Shown here piece after piece: positions 7,869 to 64,000 of a stretch of DNA of 64,000 nt. The first letter of the stretch is position 1, and each line of letters starts with the position of its first letter. Below the pieces are notes generated by a model. The model saw only the letters and a program-made list of their open reading frames with translations, was not told the origin of the DNA and made no database searches. This DNA comes from a virus. The stretch covers positions 18,838 through 82,837 of the IMG/VR virus record IMGVR_UViG_3300040801_005525; one strand, 5' to 3'. Position numbers and translations under genes: made by a program.

Positions 7869-7897
7869 TTGATTTTTATTTCTTGTCAATATATTGT
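7869..7897 (+). promoter_or_regulatory. Probable promoter of the DnaB-like ATPase gene
   Basis: TTGATT, 17 bases, TATTGT in a very AT-rich stretch (7850-7900), unlike the GC-rich surroundings, some 45 bp before the start codon. Confidence 0.5.
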
Positions 7898-7943
7898 AGT
7901 CGTGCTCTCTGACCACTCACCTTACTTCAGACCAGGAGACCTC

Positions 7944-9014
7944 ATGAGTTCCCGCATTAAATACGACTCCGCACAGGCCGCTTCATGGCTCGAAATGCTT
8001 CAGACCACCAAGAAGGGGGCGAGCGACCTCATCGGTGTGAGCAGGCCACGCTTTGACAAGATCCTCGAGCAGGGAGCGAGCGACACCGAAGCGCTCGCCA
8101 TGAAGTTTGTCGAACGTGAGCATCTTCAAGCCGCAAGGCTCGCTTCACAGATGTCCCCGATGACCGCAGTCAAGCTTGCCTTCGAGAACATCGAATCCAT
8201 CTATCGTAAGGAGGAAGGCACGACCGATCATGACACGGGGATCGAGCTTGGAGATGAGGGGAGGCTCGTGTTGCCTTCACCTGGGTTGGTCGTCGTGACA
8301 GGACCACCCTCGAGTGGAAAGTCTTCCCTGCTGCGCCAGCTCGTCTCGCAGAAACCCATGGCGAGCCAACTTGCTTATCTCTGTCTCGAACAACCCATGA
8401 CCGAAGCCGTCATCAAGCTCATGTGCCAGGTCGCGCGTATCCACTCGAGTCACATCAAGACAGCGCGCCTCAGCGAGAATGACTGGGCACGACTCATCAA
8501 GGCTGCTGGCGATCTCTCCGAGGCAAACGTGAGCATGATCGGTCAAACCTGGGCGCTCGATGACATCATCGAGCATGTGCACGCCTTACACGCCACACGC
8601 GGACTCGATGCCTTCGTGCTCGACGGCCTTGGTCTCGTCGAAGTGCACGATGCGCGATCACGATCCGAGGAGCTCGCACGTGTGGTACGCAAGCTCAAAA
8701 AGCTTGCCTATGAGCTTGGCATTCTCGTCGTCACCAGCGCCCATACTCAGAGCCAAACAGCGCGCCACAAGCGACCATCGCTCGCAGACATCGAGCAAGC
8801 TCCCGGTCCTCTTCACTACGCAGACACGATCCTCGCATTGCACCGTGAAGAGCTCTTTGACCCAAACTCTGAACTCAGGGGGATCGCGGAGCTCCATACG
8901 CTCAAGCATCCTGACGGGCAACTCAGGACAACGCCCCTGCGCTTCTTCCCCCAATACGGACGCTTCGAGCCGCTCAGTGAGAAGGATCGGCAAGATGCAT
9001 TCTCCTTCCTCTGA
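7944..9014 (+). CDS. DnaB/RecA-fold ATPase with N-terminal HTH-like segment (356 aa)
   Basis: Start MSSRIKYDS chosen for its AGGAG site. Residues 22-45 (TKKGASDLIGVSRPRFDKIL) look like a helix-turn-helix. Residues about 95-350 form a P-loop domain: Walker A GPPSSGKS (120-127), a strand LAYLCLEQPM matching the DnaB 'SLEM' region, Walker B FVLDGLGLVEV, and the ILVVTSAHTQSQ strand with His/Gln sensor. This resembles the C-terminal domain of DnaB or RSF1010 RepA-type hexameric helicases but lacks the DnaB N-terminal domain. A separate full DnaB is encoded at 57.9-59.4 kb. It may be a helicase, a plasmid-type replication ATPase, or a regulator; it has its own promoter and orientation. Confidence 0.75.
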   Translation: MSSRIKYDSAQAASWLEMLQTTKKGASDLIGVSRPRFDKILEQGASDTEALAMKFVEREHLQAARLASQMSPMTAVKLAFENIESIYRKEEGTTDHDTGIELGDEGRLVLPSPGLVVVTGPPSSGKSSLLRQLVSQKPMASQLAYLCLEQPMTEAVIKLMCQVARIHSSHIKTARLSENDWARLIKAAGDLSEANVSMIGQTWALDDIIEHVHALHATRGLDAFVLDGLGLVEVHDARSRSEELARVVRKLKKLAYELGILVVTSAHTQSQTARHKRPSLADIEQAPGPLHYADTILALHREELFDPNSELRGIAELHTLKHPDGQLRTTPLRFFPQYGRFEPLSEKDRQDAFSFL

Positions 9015-49412: not shown

Positions 49413-49761
49413 CATCGACCTCCTGCACGCGTATCTCGACGCGTGGTGTATCCGCTCGCGTGAAGCGCCTGACCCGCAGTTCGCACACCTGCCTGTCGTT
49501 GTCATAGAGCACACCTTCGAGCGCGTCCTGGATCCCCTTGGCGTAGTTGTCCACATCGCCCATGCGGCTCCGGTTCGTAAGGTACACATCGATGTGCAGG
49601 GTCACGAACGCCTTGCCCCAGGAGCGCGCGCCCTCACACAGCGCCGCACCCCCGACCGTGCGCTTCCACACCGTATAGGCAGCCGTGTTTCTTCGCCCCT
49701 TGCCCGCGGTGCGATCCCAGGTCTTTGGGCGCCCTGGGAGTGTCATCTGGAAGGTGCGCAT
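49399..49761 (-). CDS. rusA: RusA-type Holliday-junction resolvase (120 aa)
   Basis: Small endodeoxyribonuclease of the RusA family: N-terminal strand TFQMTLPGRPKTWDRTAGKG; VTLHIDVYL; and the diagnostic GDVDNYAKGIQDALEGVLYD (68-87) with D69, D71 and D79, followed by NDRQVCELRVRRF. The Asp residues bind the metals that cut four-way DNA junctions. Useful for recombination-dependent replication and for clearing branches before packaging. ATG at 49761 shares its A with the methyltransferase stop. Confidence 0.85.
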   Translation of the reverse strand: MRTFQMTLPGRPKTWDRTAGKGRRNTAAYTVWKRTVGGAALCEGARSWGKAFVTLHIDVYLTNRSRMGDVDNYAKGIQDALEGVLYDNDRQVCELRVRRFTRADTPRVEIRVQEVDDAGW

Positions 49762-50360
49762 CACATGCTCACATCGCCATAGGGGAGAAAGAGCTCGCGG
49801 AAGCGCAGCCGCCCCAGTGTGCCGCCAATGTAGGTGACCTGCGTCTCGTGCGGCACGCGCTTGAACTGACGCTCGCCCTCATGCTCGGTATAGAACTCCA
49901 CGCGCTCTGAGAGCTTGCAGTGCGCAAACCCCGCGAGCACGCGCCCCCAGCGCGTCGCGTTCACGCTCTTGGTGACGAGGATGAGCTCGTTGACCTCCCC
50001 GTTGATGTAGGCCTCGACCGCGCGCGCGAGCCACACGCCCATGGAGCTCTTCTTGACGCCAAAGCGCGTGGTCATCCGGCAGTAGGGCGGGTTCAGGAAC
50101 ACGGTCGTCTCCCGCCCATGGGTCTGCCAGCACTTCGTGAGGCCATCGTCCTCGGCGGTGAAGAACGTGCGCGCCCCGACGACCTCCTGGGCCTTTTTGC
50201 AGCTCGCCGGGTCGAGGTCGATGCGTCCACCGAGCGCCTCACGGCTCAGGGTCACGAGCCAGGCGGGGGTGTACCACTCGATGTCTTTGGAGAGGTGTTG
50301 GGCGTTGGCGGCCAAGGGGATCTCGTGTGCTGTGGGGGGAAGGGAGTGCAGGGGTGACAC
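49761..50360 (-). CDS. dam: DNA N6-adenine methyltransferase, Dam family (199 aa)
   Basis: Phage Dam family (PF05869-type): EWYTPAWLVTLSREAL near the N-terminus, IDLDPASCKKAQEVV, the ARTFFTAEDDGLTKCW loop, and the catalytic VFLNPPYCR (NPPY). The late part has LILVTKSVNATRWGRVL and VTYIGG. These enzymes methylate adenine in DNA, commonly GATC. GTG at 50360 chosen as the start, but no ribosome site supports it; the frame is open further upstream into a Lys/Pro-rich segment. GATC motifs recur in the replication origin at 61.07 kb. Confidence 0.8.
   Translation of the reverse strand: MSPLHSLPPTAHEIPLAANAQHLSKDIEWYTPAWLVTLSREALGGRIDLDPASCKKAQEVVGARTFFTAEDDGLTKCWQTHGRETTVFLNPPYCRMTTRFGVKKSSMGVWLARAVEAYINGEVNELILVTKSVNATRWGRVLAGFAHCKLSERVEFYTEHEGERQFKRVPHETQVTYIGGTLGRLRFRELFLPYGDVSM
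50327..50354 (+). repeat. Dispersed G-rich/T-rich repeat, copy 9 (short)
   Basis: GTGCTGTGGGGGGAAGGGAG, without the T-rich tail, near the methyltransferase start; another copy follows 30 bp on. Confidence 0.5.
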
Positions 50361-50385
50361 CGTCGCGAAGGCATCGGTGCGGGGG

Positions 50386-50425
50386 GTGCAGAGGGGAGGA
50401 GGGGTCTTACTCTTCTTCTTTTTTG
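50386..50425 (+). repeat. Dispersed G-rich/T-rich repeat, copy 10
   Basis: GTGCAGAGGGGAGGAGGGGT, then CTTACTCTTCTTCTTTTTT; overlaps the stop codon and last codons of the gene at 50407-50850. Confidence 0.65.
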
Positions 50426-50850
50426 GGGTCGGGTTTCTGGGCAGGATGGGGTGGCGCGGGGGAGGGCGCAGGCGGCACGGCCTGAGGAGGGCCGGGGAGC
50501 ACATGGCGACGAAAGGGTGGGGGAGAGGGGCGCTGGGGTCGGGGTGTCGTCTTCACGTCGGCATCCTTTGAGGAGAAGGACTCGCGCGCGGCGAGGCCGT
50601 GGAGATCAGAGCAGGGAGGGAGGTGATGAAAGCGCTGCACGGCAGCGAGCTCGCGGGTCAGGTAGGTCACCTGGGCACACAGGGCGTCGTGGGTGGCGCC
50701 GAGCTCCTCGACGAGCTTCAGGATGTGCTTGCAGGTGTAGGCGATGCCTGGCTCACGCCGCTCGAGCACGCGCAGGTCTTGCTTGATGCGCTCGCCTGGG
50801 GTCATCGATGCGTCAGGGGTTGTGTCGGACAAAGCGAGGTATCGATCCAT
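50407..50850 (-). CDS. Hypothetical protein with Pro-rich C-terminus (147 aa)
   Basis: CAGGAG before the ATG; overlaps the previous gene by 38 bp. Helical residues about 15-75 (MTPGERIKQDLRVLERREPG, EELGATHDALCAQVTYLTRE), then a disordered Pro-rich tail of about 65 residues ending in a KKEEE run. No family recognised. Confidence 0.6.
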   Translation of the reverse strand: MDRYLALSDTTPDASMTPGERIKQDLRVLERREPGIAYTCKHILKLVEELGATHDALCAQVTYLTRELAAVQRFHHLPPCSDLHGLAARESFSSKDADVKTTPRPQRPSPPPFRRHVLPGPPQAVPPAPSPAPPHPAQKPDPKKEEE

Positions 50851-57905: not shown

Positions 57906-59441
57906 TCACATCCAATCGTTGTCATCCTGCACCACGTTGAGGTGCAGCACGTGTTTTCCTTGTTCATTTTGCTGAACACGGTCAGCGCGAAAGTCTGAGC
58001 CATAGCGCCCATCGAGGTCTGCGATCTTGCCGGTCTTGCCATCGAAGAAGAGCTTCGTGGTGCCGATGGCGCCTTCTCGATACTTGCGGGTGATGATCTC
58101 CATCACGCCCACGTCCTCGGTGTTCGGGTCATACACCTCATCACGGTAGATGAAGCTGATGATGTCGCCATCCTGCTCGAGCTGACCGGCTGCTTTCAGG
58201 TCAGACATCCAGGGGCGCTTGTCGGTGCGATCCTCACACTTCCTGTTGGGCTGGGCGAGCGCCGTGATGTTGCACTCGAACTCGCCAGCGAGCTCTTTCA
58301 AGGTGCGTGAGGTGTTCGCCACGAGGTCCACATCAGAGGCATTCGGCATGGCCCTGTTGCGCACGATCTGGGCGTAGTCGATGAACACGACATCGAGCCC
58401 TCCTGGCATCTCGGCCACCTTCCGGATCTGACGTCGAATCCTTGAGATGTCACACCCCGGAGCATAGTCGATGGCGACCTGAGCCTCGATGAGCTTGCCT
58501 GTCTCGTGCACGAACTTCGTCCACTGTTGCCTGCTCACGCTCTTGTTTTTGAGCGCGCTCCTCGAGAGTCCCGAACGTGAGTAGAGGATGCGCTGATACC
58601 ACTGCGACGGCTTCATCTCGAGCGAGAAGATGAGCACGCGCTTGCCCTGATCGAGCGCGAGGTTTGCCGCAAGCGTACCCGCGAGCGCGCTCTTTCCCAT
58701 CGAAGGTCTCCCACCAAGGTAGATGAGCTCGGTGGGCACGAACATGCCGTCATCAAAGAACTCATCGAGCGTCTTGATGCCTGTCGGCAAGCCTCGCATG
58801 ATGTGGGTCTGCTCACCCTTGTAGGTCGCTTCAGTGTCCTCGAACACGATCTTTGCGCCCTGCTTCCCCCAGCACAACTCCTCCTTGCCGTCATGCTCGG
58901 CGAGCAGCTCGACGAGCTTCCCCACGAGTTCCACAAAGCCCGGGTAGTCGTTCAAGTTGTCTGCGGCCTTCTGGATCAGACGCCTCGCCGCTTTGATGAA
59001 TTGCCAGAGCTTGGCTTTGCGTGAGATGATCGTGGCGTAGTAGCTGACATTCGTGGCGCTGGGAATCTCCGAGGAGAGGCGCGCCAGATAGTTTGGCCCA
59101 CCCACCGCATCAGAGAGCCCGTCAGCCTTGAGGTGATCGTGGACCGTGATGACGTCGATGGCTTCCTGCTTGTGGTAGAGTTCGAGCATCGCCCGGTAGA
59201 TGTGGCGATGACTCTCACGGTAGAACATCGTGGGGTCGAGCTCGCTCTCACAATACTCCATGACCGTATTATCAAGGAAAATCGCGCCGAGCGCGCTGCG
59301 CTCGGCCTCCTCGTTGTGGGGAGGGATGATGAGCTCGCCATCCCCGAGCGCCTGCTCGAGCGAGGCGATTTTCTTCTTGGCCTGCTCGAGGTCTTTCAAG
59401 ACGTGCTCGAGCTTGGGCTGGGGTGTCGCAGTCTGGTTCAT
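57906..59441 (-). CDS. dnaB: Replicative DNA helicase, DnaB family (511 aa)
   Basis: Start MNQTATPQPK, AGGAGGGAA upstream, in an ATGA overlap with the loader gene. Full DnaB architecture: N-terminal domain from about 38 (IPPHNEEAERSALGAIFLDN ... HLKADGLSDAVGGPNYLARL), linker, and RecA-type helicase domain with Walker A GRPSMGKS (244-251), SLEM (273-276), Walker B DVVFIDYAQIV, and the AGQLEQDGDIISFIYRD stretch with the Q and arginine finger region. The extra N-terminal coiled coil (LEQAKKKIASLEQALG) is unusual. It unwinds DNA at the fork; it is loaded by the neighbouring AAA+ protein. Confidence 0.92.
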   Translation of the reverse strand: MNQTATPQPKLEHVLKDLEQAKKKIASLEQALGDGELIIPPHNEEAERSALGAIFLDNTVMEYCESELDPTMFYRESHRHIYRAMLELYHKQEAIDVITVHDHLKADGLSDAVGGPNYLARLSSEIPSATNVSYYATIISRKAKLWQFIKAARRLIQKAADNLNDYPGFVELVGKLVELLAEHDGKEELCWGKQGAKIVFEDTEATYKGEQTHIMRGLPTGIKTLDEFFDDGMFVPTELIYLGGRPSMGKSALAGTLAANLALDQGKRVLIFSLEMKPSQWYQRILYSRSGLSRSALKNKSVSRQQWTKFVHETGKLIEAQVAIDYAPGCDISRIRRQIRKVAEMPGGLDVVFIDYAQIVRNRAMPNASDVDLVANTSRTLKELAGEFECNITALAQPNRKCEDRTDKRPWMSDLKAAGQLEQDGDIISFIYRDEVYDPNTEDVGVMEIITRKYREGAIGTTKLFFDGKTGKIADLDGRYGSDFRADRVQQNEQGKHVLHLNVVQDDNDWM

Positions 59442-60247
59442 GACTTCCCTCCTGGCACGAGTTCGAGGCGCCATGCACGGGCGAGCCTGATGTCTTGATC
59501 TGGCTTTGCTGCCATCTCTCCACGAATACGGTCGTGATACTGCCCATCAATGGCGAAGTGTCCAGCCTGCTTCAGGTCACCAAAGGACGCGTTCGACACG
59601 ATCATCACGCTCACCCCGAGGTCATAGAGTTCGGCGAGCAGCCCCCGCCAGCGCGACTTGGCCCACTCGGGCTGCTCGCCCCGCCCCATCTCGTCGATGC
59701 ACACCAGGTGGTGGCGCTTGATGTCCTGTTCGAACGCGTCGGCATCCTTTGACCCGAGGACCCTCATGGCCTGAGGTTCGGTGATGTACATCATCCTCGG
59801 CGCGCCGAGGTGGGGCACCTCATGAGCGCTGTTTCGTTTGATGTGAGCTCTGGCAATGAGCTCGATGCACTTGAGCATCGCCATGGTCTTGCCTGTGCCG
59901 TAGTCGCCCTGGATCCATGTGATGCGTGGCGGGTCCTCGCTGCCAAAAGCCTTGGCGTACGCGTAGGCCATGTGCTCAGGCTTGAACGGAATGCCACGCA
60001 TCTTGGCGAGCAGTTTCGCAGGCGCTTTGCTCTGTGCGAGCACGTGGGCAAGGCTTGCGTTGCAGCGCTCGACGCGCTTTGCGGCAAGAAAACCCGTCTC
60101 GCATGGCTCACATGACCCGAACACATACCATCCTCCTGTCAGCGGATCAGGCATCGGCTCGATGTACTCACGCTCACACACAGGACAGAGCTGTGGTGCA
60201 GGCTTGGGCTGGAGTTTGGGGAGGATGTCTTGCTTGTCTTCAATCAC
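59438..60247 (-). CDS. AAA+ helicase loader, DnaC-like (269 aa)
   Basis: GTG start at 60247 in a GTGA overlap. An N-terminal zinc finger (CPVC 21-24, CEPC 46-49) is followed by an AAA+ domain: Walker A GDYGTGKT (114-121), Walker B LVCIDEMGRG, sensor I VMIVSNAS, and the late RGEMAAKPDQ arginine region. Size, motif order and place between the initiator and DnaB identify a DnaC/DnaI-type loader that opens the DnaB ring at the origin. Confidence 0.88.
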   Translation of the reverse strand: MIEDKQDILPKLQPKPAPQLCPVCEREYIEPMPDPLTGGWYVFGSCEPCETGFLAAKRVERCNASLAHVLAQSKAPAKLLAKMRGIPFKPEHMAYAYAKAFGSEDPPRITWIQGDYGTGKTMAMLKCIELIARAHIKRNSAHEVPHLGAPRMMYITEPQAMRVLGSKDADAFEQDIKRHHLVCIDEMGRGEQPEWAKSRWRGLLAELYDLGVSVMIVSNASFGDLKQAGHFAIDGQYHDRIRGEMAAKPDQDIRLARAWRLELVPGGKS

Positions 60248-61518
60248 TGCACACCCCCTTTGAGCGCTTCGATGCGCGCGAGCACAGCCTCCCGAGCCTC
60301 GAGCCAACGTGCATTGATGGCATATGGCTCAAGCCAATCCCACGCCTCATCATTGTCCTTGAAGCCTGCTTCACCAAGCAATTCATGGACCTCATACCGC
60401 AGGTGCGAGCCGCCCTCGATGGCCTCGATGGTGACGTCTGCGGCATCGAGGCAGCGCTTGGGCGCGGATGATGGTGTGACGCTCACCTTGTTCCAGCTCG
60501 CCGGGTTCGCCAGCCGCTTCTTGGCGTAGTTGAACAAATGACGGGTGGCACGCTCCCGACAGGTCGCGATCTGCTCCTCGACCTGCGCGAAGAACGCCTC
60601 CTCCCCGAGCAGCGCCACGATGGATGCGATGCCTTGCTCGAACTCCTCGAGGTCTTTGCATGTCTGGCTCCTCAGCACACACCCGTGCCAGGCGAGCAGC
60701 GCCAACGCGTAGCGTGCAGGGTGTCCAATCGCTTCGATGCGCGCTCTGCACCCAGGCTTGTTCGGTACGATCCAATCAAAGTCCTCTGGGCGCACACTTT
60801 GCTCATCCGGCGCCGCGGCACCTTTCACCGACTCATCCAGGCTCGACGGTGCTGTCGCCTGATACGCGGCCTGGGGGACCACTTCATCGACGTCGATGGT
60901 CCTTCGGTCTTCACGAAGGGTCAGCTCGATGACCTCTGCCTTCATGTCCTCGTGATGAAGCTCGAAAGAAGAATCAGAAGAAAATCCATCCCCACCCCCA
61001 TCAGCACACTCGTCGGGTTTTGCACTCCCCCTCGATTCTGTTGTGGGGGGTAGGGGGGGATTATTGATCTGTTTTACTGATCTGTTTATTGGATCGGTTA
61101 TGTCCGAAACTGAGTTTCGCACTCTCCGAAGCTCAGTTTCAGTCCTCTCCGAAACTGAGCTTCGCACTTCGGAAGGATCAGAGGTGCGAAACTGAGTTTC
61201 GCACTCTCCGAAGCTCAGTTTCGCACCCTCCGAAACTAAGCTTCGGACATGTTCGGGTATGGTGAGTGTGTATTGGTAGCGTTCGCCTGGCATACGTGCC
61301 ACGCGAATCCACCCCTCTTCGATGAGGCGTTTTCTGACTTTGGTGAGGTAGCGGGGGTTGCAGCGTACGGCCTTGGCGAGCTGCTTGTCGGAGGGGTAAC
61401 ATTTTCCTCCGGTCTTCCAGTCTGCCCAAAAATTTATCAGACAGTAGAGCACCGTTGTATCGGTGGTGCTCGATGGCCCGTGGTCACGCACGGCCATCAA
61501 ATAATTGTCTCTGAACAT
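60244..61518 (-). CDS. Replication initiator, lambda O-like, with origin inside its gene (424 aa)
   Basis: Start MFRDNYLMAV at 61518 has GAAGGAACGACG at ideal spacing; starts at 61551 or 61578 are possible. Residues about 20-80 form a winged helix (TVLYCLINFWADWKTGGKCY; PSDKQLAKAVRCNPRYLTKV, RKRLIEEGW), the DNA-binding type of O/RepA/DnaD-like initiators. A low-complexity middle (about 105-145) is coded by the iterons, as in lambda O. The C-terminal part is helical and would contact the helicase or loader; loader and DnaB genes follow at once. Role inferred from architecture and context. Confidence 0.75.
   Translation of the reverse strand: MFRDNYLMAVRDHGPSSTTDTTVLYCLINFWADWKTGGKCYPSDKQLAKAVRCNPRYLTKVRKRLIEEGWIRVARMPGERYQYTLTIPEHVRSLVSEGAKLSFGECETQFRTSDPSEVRSSVSERTETELRRVRNSVSDITDPINRSVKQINNPPLPPTTESRGSAKPDECADGGGDGFSSDSSFELHHEDMKAEVIELTLREDRRTIDVDEVVPQAAYQATAPSSLDESVKGAAAPDEQSVRPEDFDWIVPNKPGCRARIEAIGHPARYALALLAWHGCVLRSQTCKDLEEFEQGIASIVALLGEEAFFAQVEEQIATCRERATRHLFNYAKKRLANPASWNKVSVTPSSAPKRCLDAADVTIEAIEGGSHLRYEVHELLGEAGFKDNDEAWDWLEPYAINARWLEAREAVLARIEALKGGVQ
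61037..61075 (+). repeat. Dispersed G-rich/T-rich repeat, copy 13
   Basis: CTGTTGTGGGGGGTAGGGGG, then GATTATTGATCTG; lies beside the first GATC 13-mer of the origin, inside the initiator gene. Confidence 0.6.
61066..61244. other. Replication origin: six iterons next to three GATC 13-mers
   Basis: Three tandem 13-mers start at 61066, 61079 and 61092: GATCTGTTTTACT, GATCTGTTTATTG, GATCGGTTATGTC; the first two match the E. coli DUE 13-mer pattern GATCTNTTNTTTT well. They abut six 13-bp palindromic iterons, consensus GAARCTSAGYTTC, at 61106, 61128, 61151, 61188, 61210 and 61232 (spacings 22, 23, 37, 22, 22), i.e. two groups of three in helical phase. All lie within the initiator gene, as in lambda. 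Confidence 0.85.
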
Positions 61519-61629
61519 CGTCGTTCCTTCGAGTTTTTCGTTTCTCTTCATGCCCAGCATCTCCTCCACCCGAGTCAACAGGTGGTTTCTACAGGAGGTT
61601 GCTGCGCGCTTCTGGTCTTACCTTAAAGT

Positions 61630-61652
61630 CAAGTTGCGATTTCTGCAACTTG
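61630..61652. promoter_or_regulatory. Inverted repeat upstream of the initiator gene
   Basis: CAAGTTGC-gatttct-GCAACTTG, 8-bp perfect arms, in the gap between the HTH gene and the initiator. Could be an operator or a terminator stem; no T run follows. Confidence 0.5.
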
Positions 61653-61658
61653 GAAAGT

Positions 61659-62060
61659 CTAACCATCTTCCTCCTTCGCGTTGGTCCAGTGGTACACATT
61701 GACACCTGCCGACCTGATATGCCGACCTCTGCTCGTCACAGAAATAATTCCAAGTGATTGACATTCCTTGGTTTTTACATCGACGGTCCTCTTTGAAATC
61801 CGTGCCATTGGAGCAAGATTACTTTGCGTGATCGAGGCGAGATCCTCGTCGCCCATCTCCAAAATCAGTGCGATCAGGAATGTGATGGTCGACGCACTGG
61901 TGATTCGCTCATCAGACACAACTTGACCTATGCGCTCCCAGACCTTATTCTTTCCAGGAGCGTTGTTCCAGACGCCGAGTTTTTCAAAGCCGCCGCCTTC
62001 TTCCACAGAGGCGGCGGTCTTGTTTTCTTGGCCAGCAAGATCGTCGGATTCGTGACTCAT
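61659..62060 (-). CDS. Winged-helix DNA-binding protein (133 aa)
   Basis: Start MSHESDDLAG with AAGGAGGTCAG. After an acidic N-terminus, residues about 45-125 look like a wHTH: VWERIGQVVSDERITSASTI, TFLIALILEMGDEDLASITQ, SNLAPMARISKRTVDVKTKE CQSLGIISVTSRGRHIRS. Such proteins precede initiator genes in phage replication modules as repressors or co-initiators. Its own upstream region holds a perfect inverted repeat, suggesting autoregulation. Confidence 0.65.
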   Translation of the reverse strand: MSHESDDLAGQENKTAASVEEGGGFEKLGVWNNAPGKNKVWERIGQVVSDERITSASTITFLIALILEMGDEDLASITQSNLAPMARISKRTVDVKTKECQSLGIISVTSRGRHIRSAGVNVYHWTNAKEEDG

Positions 62061-62106
62061 CTGACCTCCTTCAAGCCTAAAAACGCCCAAAAACGCTGCC
62101 AAGTAG

Positions 62107-62128
62107 TTTTTGAAATTTCGTTCAAAAA
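62107..62128. promoter_or_regulatory. AT-rich inverted repeat upstream of the HTH gene
   Basis: TTTTTGAA-ATTTCG-TTCAAAAA, 8-bp perfect arms, next to two direct TTTTCCGA repeats. Probable operator in the replication-module promoter region; no clean -35/-10 pair could be fixed. Confidence 0.55.
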
Positions 62129-62219
62129 AATTTTCCGATAGCCGATTTTCCGAGGAAACACTTTTGGTTGGAACGTGACCATCCTCGGTTTTGAAAGTTT
62201 TGATCGTGATACGAGCGTG

Positions 62220-62257
62220 AAAAAGGGCGCCGATCGGGATGATCGGCGCCCTTTTTT
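62220..62257. terminator. Bidirectional rho-independent terminator
   Basis: Perfect stem AAAAAGGGCGCCGATC / GATCGGCGCCCTTTTT around loop GGGAT, with A and T runs on both sides. It insulates the par operon from the replication module. Confidence 0.9.
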
Positions 62258-62388
62258 GGATCGGTCTGGATCGATGTGGTGCGTGAGTCGTGTGGCTTGC
62301 CGAGATCGGTGCCTCGGATCACCTGGCCGCTCTGGCGCGCGCCTCGCTCGTGCTGTGACGTGTCCCCCATGCCTGTTCATGGGTCGTG

Positions 62389-63474
62389 TCATAGCAGGCC
62401 CTCCATGCTCTTGATGAGCGCGGACAGGCTCTTTGCTTCGACAGGGGTCTCGGCAGGGAGCGGCTTGATGGACCACAACACCCAGAGCTTGCCTTCAGCC
62501 TGGCAGTACTCGCGCGCGGGCACCTTCTGTTGCTCGAAGAGCGCGACCTTGCTCCCGAGCTCCGCGGGGGAGGGGAGCGGCGTGATGACACACTGCCCCT
62601 TCAGGGCAGCCTGTACGGCCTTTCGCCAGGCCGAGTCCGAGGGCTCCCTGAACGCGTTGACGGGCGGGAGAGGAGAGGTCGTCTCGTGCACCTCCTCCTC
62701 CTGTGCCTGTGTGCCAGGTTCGGAGCTCACCGGCGCGTCGAGCGGCACGAGCTGCTCGCCCTGATCGGCGCGCTTGAACACGCCAGTGGGCTGTGCATTG
62801 ACCTCGACCAAAGTGTCAGGCGTCTGAGCATTATGCTCAGATTCCACAGAGGCCGATTTCCTGTTCGACTCTCTGATCCCTGAGACATCGCGTGCCGTCC
62901 CATCCGCGCTCATGACCTTGTCGCGCTCGGGGATGATGTCCTGGTCGACCATCTCGCGGCGCACCTTGCTCACGAAGGTCTGAGACACGCGGCACTTCTG
63001 CGCGATCATGCGGTCAGACCACTTCCTCCACTCCTTGTCGCCAAGCGCCTTCTCCACCACACGGCGCTTATCAGAGCGCGTGCGACGAAGGCCGTGCTTG
63101 TCGTTGACCTGGAAGCTGTAGAGCAGCGCGTCGCGCAGCGTGCCTCGGTGACGCTTGACCTGGAAGTGCGTGATGCCCTTCTTCTTGGCGGCCTTGTAGC
63201 GGTGCCACCCATCCACGAGCCAGATCGTGTCACCCTTCTCGAACACCACGAGCGAGGGCCACTCGTCGCCAGACTGGTCGACGACGATCCCGTCGCTCCT
63301 GACCTTCATGTTCTGGGCGTACTCCTTGACGGCGTTGTCATCCTCGCTGACGCGCGGCTGGAGCTGGCGCTTCAGGGTCACCTCCTCGAGCGCGACCCTG
63401 TCTCGTTTGTCGCGCCCTGCCATCTGACCCACCACCCCGAGGCCCTTGTCACTCTTCTTGCGTGTTGCACCCAT
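62389..63474 (-). CDS. parB: ParB-like partition protein (361 aa)
   Basis: Start MGATRKKSDKG, 8 bp after the ParA stop. N-terminal ParB/Srx-type domain: QLQPRVSEDDNAVKEYAQNM, then a motif DGWHRYKAAKKKGI in place of the usual GxxR GERRYRA, and VKRHRGTLRDALLYSFQVND. A central HTH follows (WSDRMIAQKCRVSQTFVSKV). A divergent variant of the family; the C-terminal half is an acidic, Pro-rich linker and a terminal domain (REYCQAEGKLWVLWSIKPLP). ParA-ParB order and spacing indicate a segregation operon. Palindrome A lies inside the gene. Confidence 0.8.
   Translation of the reverse strand: MGATRKKSDKGLGVVGQMAGRDKRDRVALEEVTLKRQLQPRVSEDDNAVKEYAQNMKVRSDGIVVDQSGDEWPSLVVFEKGDTIWLVDGWHRYKAAKKKGITHFQVKRHRGTLRDALLYSFQVNDKHGLRRTRSDKRRVVEKALGDKEWRKWSDRMIAQKCRVSQTFVSKVRREMVDQDIIPERDKVMSADGTARDVSGIRESNRKSASVESEHNAQTPDTLVEVNAQPTGVFKRADQGEQLVPLDAPVSSEPGTQAQEEEVHETTSPLPPVNAFREPSDSAWRKAVQAALKGQCVITPLPSPAELGSKVALFEQQKVPAREYCQAEGKLWVLWSIKPLPAETPVEAKSLSALIKSMEGLL
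62824..62840. promoter_or_regulatory. Third copy of palindrome A, inside parB
   Basis: CTGAGCATTATGCTCAG, identical to the box at 55650, coding for EHNAQ. There is no promoter in register here, so it may be a partition site, a repressor decoy or an internal silencer. Confidence 0.6.
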
Positions 63475-63481
63475 AATGTCT

Positions 63482-64000
63482 TTAAATCCTTTGCGAAAAC
63501 CATTCGCTGACTGTGCGGTAATCCTGCGCGCCCTTGCTGTCCGGGGCATACTGGTAGATCGGTGTGGCATAGCCCATCGACTCGGCGAACACAATCGAGT
63601 GGTTGATTGGCGGGCTCGTCTGGCCCTCGTACTCGGTGTTCAGGTGTTCGACGACCTGGCTGGCGTGGTTCGTGCGCCCGTGGAGCATCGTCGGCACGAA
63701 CCCGAGCGTGAAGAGGTCGGGGTTCTCATGCTCCCTGACCTCCTCGATGGTCTGAAGCAAGTCATACATGCCGAGCAGCGCGATCGACATGCACTGCACC
63801 GGGATGATCACGGCGTCACTTGCAATCAACACGTTCTGCGTGATCACGCCGAGCTCGGGCGGGGAGTCGATGATGATGTGGTCATACTGCGTGGTGAAGC
63901 CTCGCAGAGTGTCACGCAGGCGTGTGAGCGCCACAGGCCTCTGCGCGAGCTCCGTGGAGACGCGCGCGAGCTGCCTGCCGCCTTCGATCAGGTCCACGCC
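63482..64000 (-). CDS. parA: ParA-type partition ATPase, N-terminus cut off by the window edge
   Basis: 173 residues visible; the frame is open to the right edge. Contains the Walker A' partner motifs downstream of the P-loop: HIIIDSPPELGVITQNVLIA (Walker B region with the D-x-P-P motif) and VIIPVQCMSIALLGMYDLLQ, followed by LFTLGFVPTMLHGRTNHASQ and the C-terminal helix. The deviant Walker A motif lies outside the window. ParA uses ATP-dependent DNA binding to move ParB-bound plasmids. It sits upstream of ParB on the same strand. Confidence 0.85.
   Translation of the reverse strand, partial: GVDLIEGGRQLARVSTELAQRPVALTRLRDTLRGFTTQYDHIIIDSPPELGVITQNVLIASDAVIIPVQCMSIALLGMYDLLQTIEEVREHENPDLFTLGFVPTMLHGRTNHASQVVEHLNTEYEGQTSPPINHSIVFAESMGYATPIYQYAPDSKGAQDYRTVSEWFSQRI

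Follow-up and report, generated by a model that had tools for sequence, protein, structure and literature searches.

Where does a tailed phage that encodes its own initiator, helicase loader and DnaB begin to copy its DNA, and does a run of short palindromes buried within the initiator gene mark the place? The window analysed here is a stretch of 64,000 nucleotides (bases 18,838-82,837 of an 82,837-bp virus record; coordinates below are those of the window unless stated otherwise), and the phage was judged to be tailed from the families found for capsid, prohead protease and minor tail proteins, together with TerL matches. From the sequence we conclude that this ParAB-encoding phage very probably carries a lambda/SPP1-type origin inside its initiator gene and would replicate by a theta-type mode. 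We read the locus as an in-gene origin because its repeat array is beyond chance, is unique in the record and is placed as the lambda ori is, and because the genes follow the order initiator-loader-DnaB.

The initiator gene is an open frame of 444 amino acids from a TTG codon (60244-61578, minus strand), an ATG a few codons inside this frame being the likelier start. Residues 35-187 match the PHROG family 'replication initiation O-like' (phrog_391, E 4.2e-8), and phrog_270 is also matched (E 1.4e-5). The N-terminal part is of winged-helix type (HTH_36, E 1.3e-4, under the cut-off of that family), and a predicted model of residues 1-122 contains helices followed by two strands, at low confidence (pLDDT 56). 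The loader and DnaB that the first-pass annotation had placed beside the initiator were recovered by PHROG and Pfam profiles as a DnaC-like helicase loader (59438-60307, minus strand; phrog_50, E 6.9e-10) and a replicative DnaB helicase (57906-59474, minus strand; PF03796, E 1.2e-66; phrog_19 also matched). Just upstream of the initiator lies a small winged-helix-like gene of 147 amino acids (61659-62102, minus strand), whose matches are both weak (phrog_678, E 0.0099; HTH_Crp_2, E 0.014) and whose product is possibly a regulator; the idea that it and the initiator are paralogs was dropped, BLASTP giving it no support. Beyond it are a ParB-like partition protein (62389-63594, minus strand; phrog_1033, E 2.4e-16) and ParA (63482-64000, minus strand; phrog_164, E 3.7e-29), the latter running off the contig end. 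Elsewhere in the window, a second DnaB-like gene (7869-9014, plus strand; PF03796, E 7e-32) matches the C-terminal helicase domain only; the phage encodes two DnaB-type proteins. No RNA family reached its gathering score in the window.

Six 15-bp palindromes lie inside the initiator gene, with starts at 61105, 61127, 61150, 61187, 61209 and 61231, and span about nucleotides 334-474 of the gene. Five of the six fit CGAARCTNAGYTTCG exactly, a palindrome with the 13-bp core GAARCTNAGYTTC. In gene order, iteron 1 (CGAARCTNAGYTTCG, 61231-61245) is followed by iteron 2 (61209-61223), iteron 3 (61187-61201), which forms the core of a perfect 21-bp palindrome (61184-61204), iteron 4 (61150-61164), which follows a spacing 15 bp longer and hence a half-turn phase shift, iteron 5 (61127-61141), which deviates at its last base (CGAAGCTCAGTTTCA), and iteron 6 (61105-61119), which is closest to the AT-rich stretch; none is assigned a strand. 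Centre to centre, the iterons are 22, 23, 37, 22 and 22 bp apart (2.10, 2.19, 3.52, 2.10 and 2.10 turns), and the array is thus made of two groups of three that sit half a turn apart. The first-pass annotation had described six helically phased 13-bp iterons within the initiator coding sequence. All six copies indeed fall in the O-like gene and the 13-bp unit is the palindromic core, to which a C-G flank is to be added; since the two groups are half a turn apart, the phasing holds only inside each of them.

The six-copy array is far beyond chance. The longest array of 15-mers in the initiator gene (up to 3 mismatches) has 6 copies, whereas no more than 3 were reached in 200 synonymous recodings or in 100 codon shuffles, and no more than 2 in 20 dinucleotide shuffles. 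A 14-base form of the iteron, searched with at most one mismatch, occurs at six places in the 82,837-bp record, on both strands at each and all within the array (reversed control, 0 and 1). The frame changes at each step of the array, and stops occur in both of the other frames; the repeats are therefore a DNA-level feature and not the by-product of a repeated peptide.

The array is also placed as a known origin is. One and the same detector located the window iterons at gene nucleotides 339-465, with the AT-richest 40 bp at nucleotide 478, just past the last repeat, and in lambda O it located four iterons at nucleotides 349-416, with the AT-richest 40 bp at nucleotide 436; these four are the iterons annotated in NC_001416. 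With 15-mers the lambda array has four copies against a maximum of 2 in dinucleotide shuffles, and with 12-mers it ties with codon shuffles. The lambda-type layout previously claimed for this locus is accordingly sustained by the position within the gene, by the order of iterons then AT-rich DNA, as in the lambda ori, by a gene order like that of SPP1 genes 38-39-40, and by a 22-23 bp spacing of different iterons in a probable relative and in some phages related to it, as described below. GC skew displayed no clean turning point at the origin.

When viral_contigs was scanned for exact 8-residue peptides from the initiator, loader, DnaB, capsid and ParB, no close relative was confirmed, and a base-by-base alignment of the origin is therefore impossible. 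A TerL scan of the same collection gave four loci in three records, in none of which (0 of 3) was the initiator matched. By tblastn the initiator had no match in phages (E 0.01) or plasmids (E 0.1), nor the loader in phages (E 0.01). The origin pattern gave 0 matches in viral_contigs, and four genome_contigs stretches that contain it were judged not to be origins after 500-1100 bases of each and some of their ORFs had been read. Caudovirus D_HF5_3 is a probable distant relative of the window phage, judging from protein similarity: its initiator matches that of the window at 28% over 144 amino acids (BLASTP, E 7.5e-6 within a 15-protein set) and, like it, matches phrog_270 (E 2.6e-49). In the phage collection, the first 126 residues of the window initiator retrieved D_HF5_3 at E 0.7, and the full protein had no match at E 0.01. 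The D_HF5_3 gene contains four iterons 23, 22 and 23 bp apart, unrelated in sequence to those of the window.

Arrays of this kind were sought in 19 comparison genes, a non-random set picked from phage matches. Five of them (CRP5, OlisA2, BP10, MrSmee and D_HF5_3) have arrays of at least four copies, more than in any of 40 codon shuffles; the 4-5 copies in lambda, Staphylococcus phage 96 (a DnaD-like gene) and Funu2 are equalled by shuffles, and in the other 11 arrays do not exceed shuffles, making 14 of 19 without an array beyond them. In CRP5, OlisA2 and BP10 the array is followed by the AT-richest 40 bp, which is not the case for MrSmee and D_HF5_3. The D_HF5_3 initiator itself matches 274 phage records, 11 of which were fetched, chosen for variety; five match over most of the initiator length, whereas Beakin, ReT1v-1, PFR1, Splinter, phiPsal1 and Rousseau match over no more than about 70-130 residues, in its C-terminal half. 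Arrays beyond 40 shuffles were found in six of the 11 (Pseudomonas phage 5400, Lactococcus phage CAP, SfV, Splinter, phiPsal1 and Rousseau). Spacings are 18, 22, 22 and 22 bp in 5400 and 22, 23, 22 and 23 bp in CAP; a 22-23 bp spacing is plain also in Splinter (three copies), phiPsal1 has 15 bp, and SfV and Rousseau are mixed. Conservation of spacing, which the first-pass annotation had named as a check, was thus seen among distant relatives only, and in part: it is kept in D_HF5_3, 5400 and CAP, while five of the 11 relatives of D_HF5_3 lack an array beyond shuffles. Purine repeats of the GGGAACA or GAGGAACA type occur in the middle of the initiator genes of P12026 (L022), Beakin (L168), ReT1v-1 (L169) and PFR1 (L170), and are possibly an alternative opening or G-rich element.

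Adjoining iteron 6 is the likely DNA unwinding element (61061-61104, plus strand), made up of the three tandem 13-mers starting with GATC that had been noted before (at 61066, 61079 and 61092) and lying in the AT-richest 40 bp of the gene. Two of these are alike at 12 of 13 positions in the best register and the third is degenerate. The oriC of E. coli has three 13-mers of consensus GATCTnTTnnTTT, and RK2 has four, one strand of which is bound by the RK2 initiator, according to the portion of the article consulted (PMC4081077). Counted by eye, the window 13-mers match GATCTnTTnnTTT at 8, 9 and 7 of its 10 fixed positions. The record contains a single equally spaced GATC triple (11-16 bp) in AT-rich DNA, and 30 simulated records (third-order Markov) contain none; when the AT condition is dropped, three are counted in the record. 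Three GATC within 30 bp are expected about 9 times in the record and so are in themselves not unusual at the origin, and GATC is common in this genome, with 539 sites against 581 expected from trinucleotides.

The first-pass annotation had gone further, to oriC-like 13-mers whose GATC starts suggest Dam control. Hemimethylation gates re-initiation at P1 oriR and E. coli oriC, and a corresponding reading for the phage would have its GATC 13-mers methylated by its own Dam-family enzyme, with hemimethylation gating re-initiation in the same manner. The resemblance to GATCTnTTnnTTT, as that consensus is given in the portion of the article cited above, speaks for it, as do the rarity of the equally spaced AT-rich triple in simulations, the presence of a Dam-family gene and the GATC repeats of one other initiator gene (L102, below). 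The Dam-family methyltransferase reported at 49.8 kb is indeed encoded there (49761-50504; PF05869, E 6.5e-9, with an NPPY motif), but it scores 37 against the 97-bit NCBIfam cut-off for TIGR01712 and so falls below it. Among 14 other initiator genes with the C-tract described below (D_HF5_3 and 13 from IMG/VR), a single one, L102, has GATC repeats within 60 nt before the tract, namely five GATC at the corresponding place; five second-batch initiators have none in the 45 nt before it. PF05869 methyltransferases were found in 0 of the 13 IMG/VR records behind these initiators, many of which are fragments. Moreover, no exact DnaA box (TTWTNCACA) occurs in the 82,837 bp, with one-mismatch sites present at 60-64 kb, and three GATC in 30 bp would be expected some nine times per record. 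SeqA is a gammaproteobacterial protein, and the host of the window phage may belong to another group. The two densest GATC spots of the record lie elsewhere, in regulatory-looking DNA, and can be counted in favour of Dam control (corrected P about 0.03 and 0.09, respectively). One, L009:1865-1922 (record coordinates), ranks first in the record for GATC density at the 60-bp scale, with six GATC in 60 bp of AT-rich intergenic DNA and repeats in a 13-bp register; it adjoins a small HTH repressor-like frame and resembles an immunity switch. The other, 62202-62317, has seven GATC in 120 bp upstream of the 147-amino-acid gene and the initiator, and includes a perfect hairpin with 16-bp arms (62220-62256). 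The oriC-like, Dam-controlled reading hence stands at resemblance (no exact DnaA box, a GATC count in itself not unusual, L102 alone of 14), and we consider it unlikely.

The palindromes themselves admit other explanations, each of which has to account for where they lie. They might be an operator array only, through which the initiator or the 147-amino-acid winged-helix-like protein shuts down its own operon with no origin role; palindromic sites would suit a dimeric repressor, and a small winged-helix-like gene does lie upstream, but the array lies at about nt 330-475 of the gene, and its position, spacing and AT-rich neighbour are those of known origins, which makes this quite improbable. 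Autoregulation could nonetheless exist alongside an origin. Palindromic tandem sites are usual for partition systems, and the ParB gene is about 1.1 kb away, so the array might also be a parS cluster, that is, a ParB centromere whose sites happen to fall in the initiator gene; in keeping with this, no other array of at least three copies is among those listed for 61550-64000. Against a centromere, the array is placed as in-gene origins are, beside AT-rich 13-mers and as in D_HF5_3 and lambda, and no copy of the palindrome lies outside the initiator gene in the record, the DNA upstream of parA being off the contig; we hold this to be very improbable.

The palindromes might, finally, be a mobile palindromic (REP-like) repeat or a simple low-complexity linker, without function. 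Like paired palindromes were met beside a RAYT-like gene of a Patescibacteria MAG and at the start of a recombinase gene of Plantactinospora (both genes assigned by reading). The mobile-repeat idea was rejected because, among 149 genomes of the Plantactinospora phylum, the motif occurs in 2 (Plantactinospora itself being one) and the reversed control in 7; nor are there further copies in the record, while arrays exist at the corresponding place in unrelated initiators. This reading is extremely improbable. The Patescibacteria locus (L012:4684-5460) comprises the RAYT-transposase-like gene with a paired AAACTTAGTTTCG/CGAAACTAAGTTTCG palindrome, iteron-like, at its 3' end.

The new part of this analysis, absent from the first-pass annotation, is a C-tract plus G-run beside the 13-mers. 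On the initiator sense strand, which reads CCCCCCCTACCCCCCAC a few bases past the last GATC, the C-tract CCCCCCTACCCCCCAC (61043-61058, minus strand) is followed by GGGGG (61027-61031, minus strand). D_HF5_3 also carries CCCCCCTACCCCCCAC after its iterons, in a different reading frame from the window, and is the only one of the 19 comparison genes to do so, the tract being missing in the other 18, lambda included. It is likewise missing in all 11 D_HF5_3 relatives, where the best matches cover 9-11 of 16 positions, within the range of shuffles. A scan of viral_contigs for the 16-mer CCCCCCTACCCCCCAC gave at least 119 stretches. The first 80 loci contain 82 matches in 71 distinct contexts and 32 same-strand ORFs of at least 189 amino acids, 25 of which were profiled, the other seven being near-duplicates (L100, L112, L114, L115, L117, L118 and L122). 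Thirteen of the 25 match PHROG replication initiation, O-like, DnaD-like loader or primosomal families, counting L121, in which HNH endonuclease matches outscore the initiator-type one, as well as L075 and L105, each assigned on one primosomal or DnaD-like match; among random ORFs from the same loci the figure is 0 of 20 (Fisher 1e-4). One of the 10 antisense ORFs profiled at the C-tract is an initiator (L066). The remaining 39 stretches added 10 same-strand ORFs of at least 189 amino acids, five of which match initiators by phmmer with a reference set that included the first-batch initiators. With 28 named-phage initiators as sole queries, six of 31 distinct ORFs with the 16-mer matched against 0 of 541 without it (Fisher 1.6e-8).

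Among the matches listed, the C-tract lies mid-gene in 18 initiator-type genes and in all three reading frames (in the first 13, PLPPT in 7, PPTPH in 4 and PPYPP in 2); the peptide is therefore not what its conservation preserves. A G-run of at least 4 lies within 16 nt downstream in 12 of these 18 initiators and in 3 of 81 other distinct contexts (Fisher 7e-9), the three being unclassified ORFs (L045, L052 and L094), and the window GGGGG falls in the same interval of up to 16 nt. Internal conservation of the 16-mer is no evidence, because the query fixed its sequence; the evidence consists of the enrichment in initiators, the G-run, which is outside the query, and the three frames. Most matches lie outside initiators, which make up 14 of the 71 first-batch contexts with L066 counted, the others including terminase gene starts, the antisense of a virion protein and several recurring short-ORF or noncoding contexts. 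In one recurring context, ...CCGGAA...TGA...GAAATG-CCCCCCTACCCCCCAC-GA..., seen with short or no ORFs on several IMG/VR contigs, the loci are L046, L053, L061, L081, L084, L093, L098, L154, L158 and others. Clear arrays precede the C-tract in only some of the 13 first-batch initiators, and the folding predicted for single strands is modest (z -1.5 and -2.5 for the two strands of the window, and from -2.0 to -3.9 in three other cases). The 16-mer is present in 1 of 198 genomes of the Plantactinospora phylum (reversed control, 0), in a frame that does not read as an initiator (by reading, no family profiles). No description of the C-tract or its peptides was found in the literature, mostly that outside subscription journals; literal matches to motif or peptides, among those listed, concern animal mitochondria and a sarcoma and are unrelated. 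We propose, at about even odds, that the C-tract and G-run form a so far undescribed DNA element which many in-gene phage origins share, situated just past the AT-rich or purine-rich opening stretch and kept at the DNA level across initiator families with unrelated iterons. On the opened strand it might fold, into a C/G hairpin or a G-rich structure, and so delimit the bubble or guide helicase loading or priming.

If the locus is an in-gene origin, initiator dimers would use their winged-helix part to bind the palindromes, wrapping the array and melting the 13-mers of the AT-rich stretch, after which the loader would put DnaB on the opened strand; the half-turn shift in mid-array is ill-suited to one continuous wrap. 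The C-tract and G-run beyond the 13-mers could also act in cis, delimiting or structuring the opened region, perhaps as a C/G hairpin or a G-rich folded strand that aids loading or priming. The coding sequence of the origin would at the same time serve as a linker between the two halves of the initiator protein.

The locus offers a compact, testable origin for a ParAB-bearing phage with no close relatives found in the collections searched. It suggests that in-gene origins, as in lambda and SPP1, are recognizable in distant phages by the spacing and position of their repeats and not by sequence. If the C-tract and G-run are a real origin element, they would provide a sequence handle to locate origins in uncultured phages and would point to a post-opening step missing from the lambda model.

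Lambda and SPP1 already provide examples of origins inside initiator genes. The corresponding sites of RK2 and oriC are outside the initiator gene, and unlike oriC the window record is without exact DnaA boxes. What the window has in common with oriC and RK2 oriV is tandem 13-mers in an AT-rich opening region, those of oriC starting with GATC, as far as the consulted portion of the article describes them (PMC4081077). RepA/parABS mycobacteriophages such as Miko likewise combine an initiator with ParAB, a likeness by description; in the view of the authors their origin is immediately upstream of repA or inside it, as in lambda, and they state, in the section available, that the regions examined have no repeated motifs (PMC7157519). 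In D_HF5_3, Pseudomonas phage 5400, Lactococcus phage CAP, Streptococcus phage OlisA2 and others, repeats 22-23 bp apart (with one 18-bp step in 5400) lie mid-initiator-gene as in the window, but the repeat sequences differ, and of these phages D_HF5_3 alone carries the C-tract. The O gene of Stx phages holds six iterons, the same number as in the window, together with an AT-rich tract, on the evidence of an excerpt (PMC7466680). In SPP1, oriL (direct repeats and an AT-rich DUE) is inside gene 38, with the loader gp39 and the DnaB-type helicase gp40 next, going by the part of the source at hand (PMC6316719); the origin within the initiator gene and the order initiator-loader-DnaB are shared with the window, by description and not by sequence. 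SPP1 has, in addition, a second origin, oriR. As in lambda (about nucleotides 349-433 of O), tandem palindromic iterons about two turns apart are followed by AT-rich DNA inside an O-type gene. Unlike in lambda, whose iterons are unrelated in sequence, the window array shifts by half a turn at its middle, its AT-rich part consists of GATC 13-mers followed by the C-tract and G-run, and the phage encodes its own DnaB plus loader.
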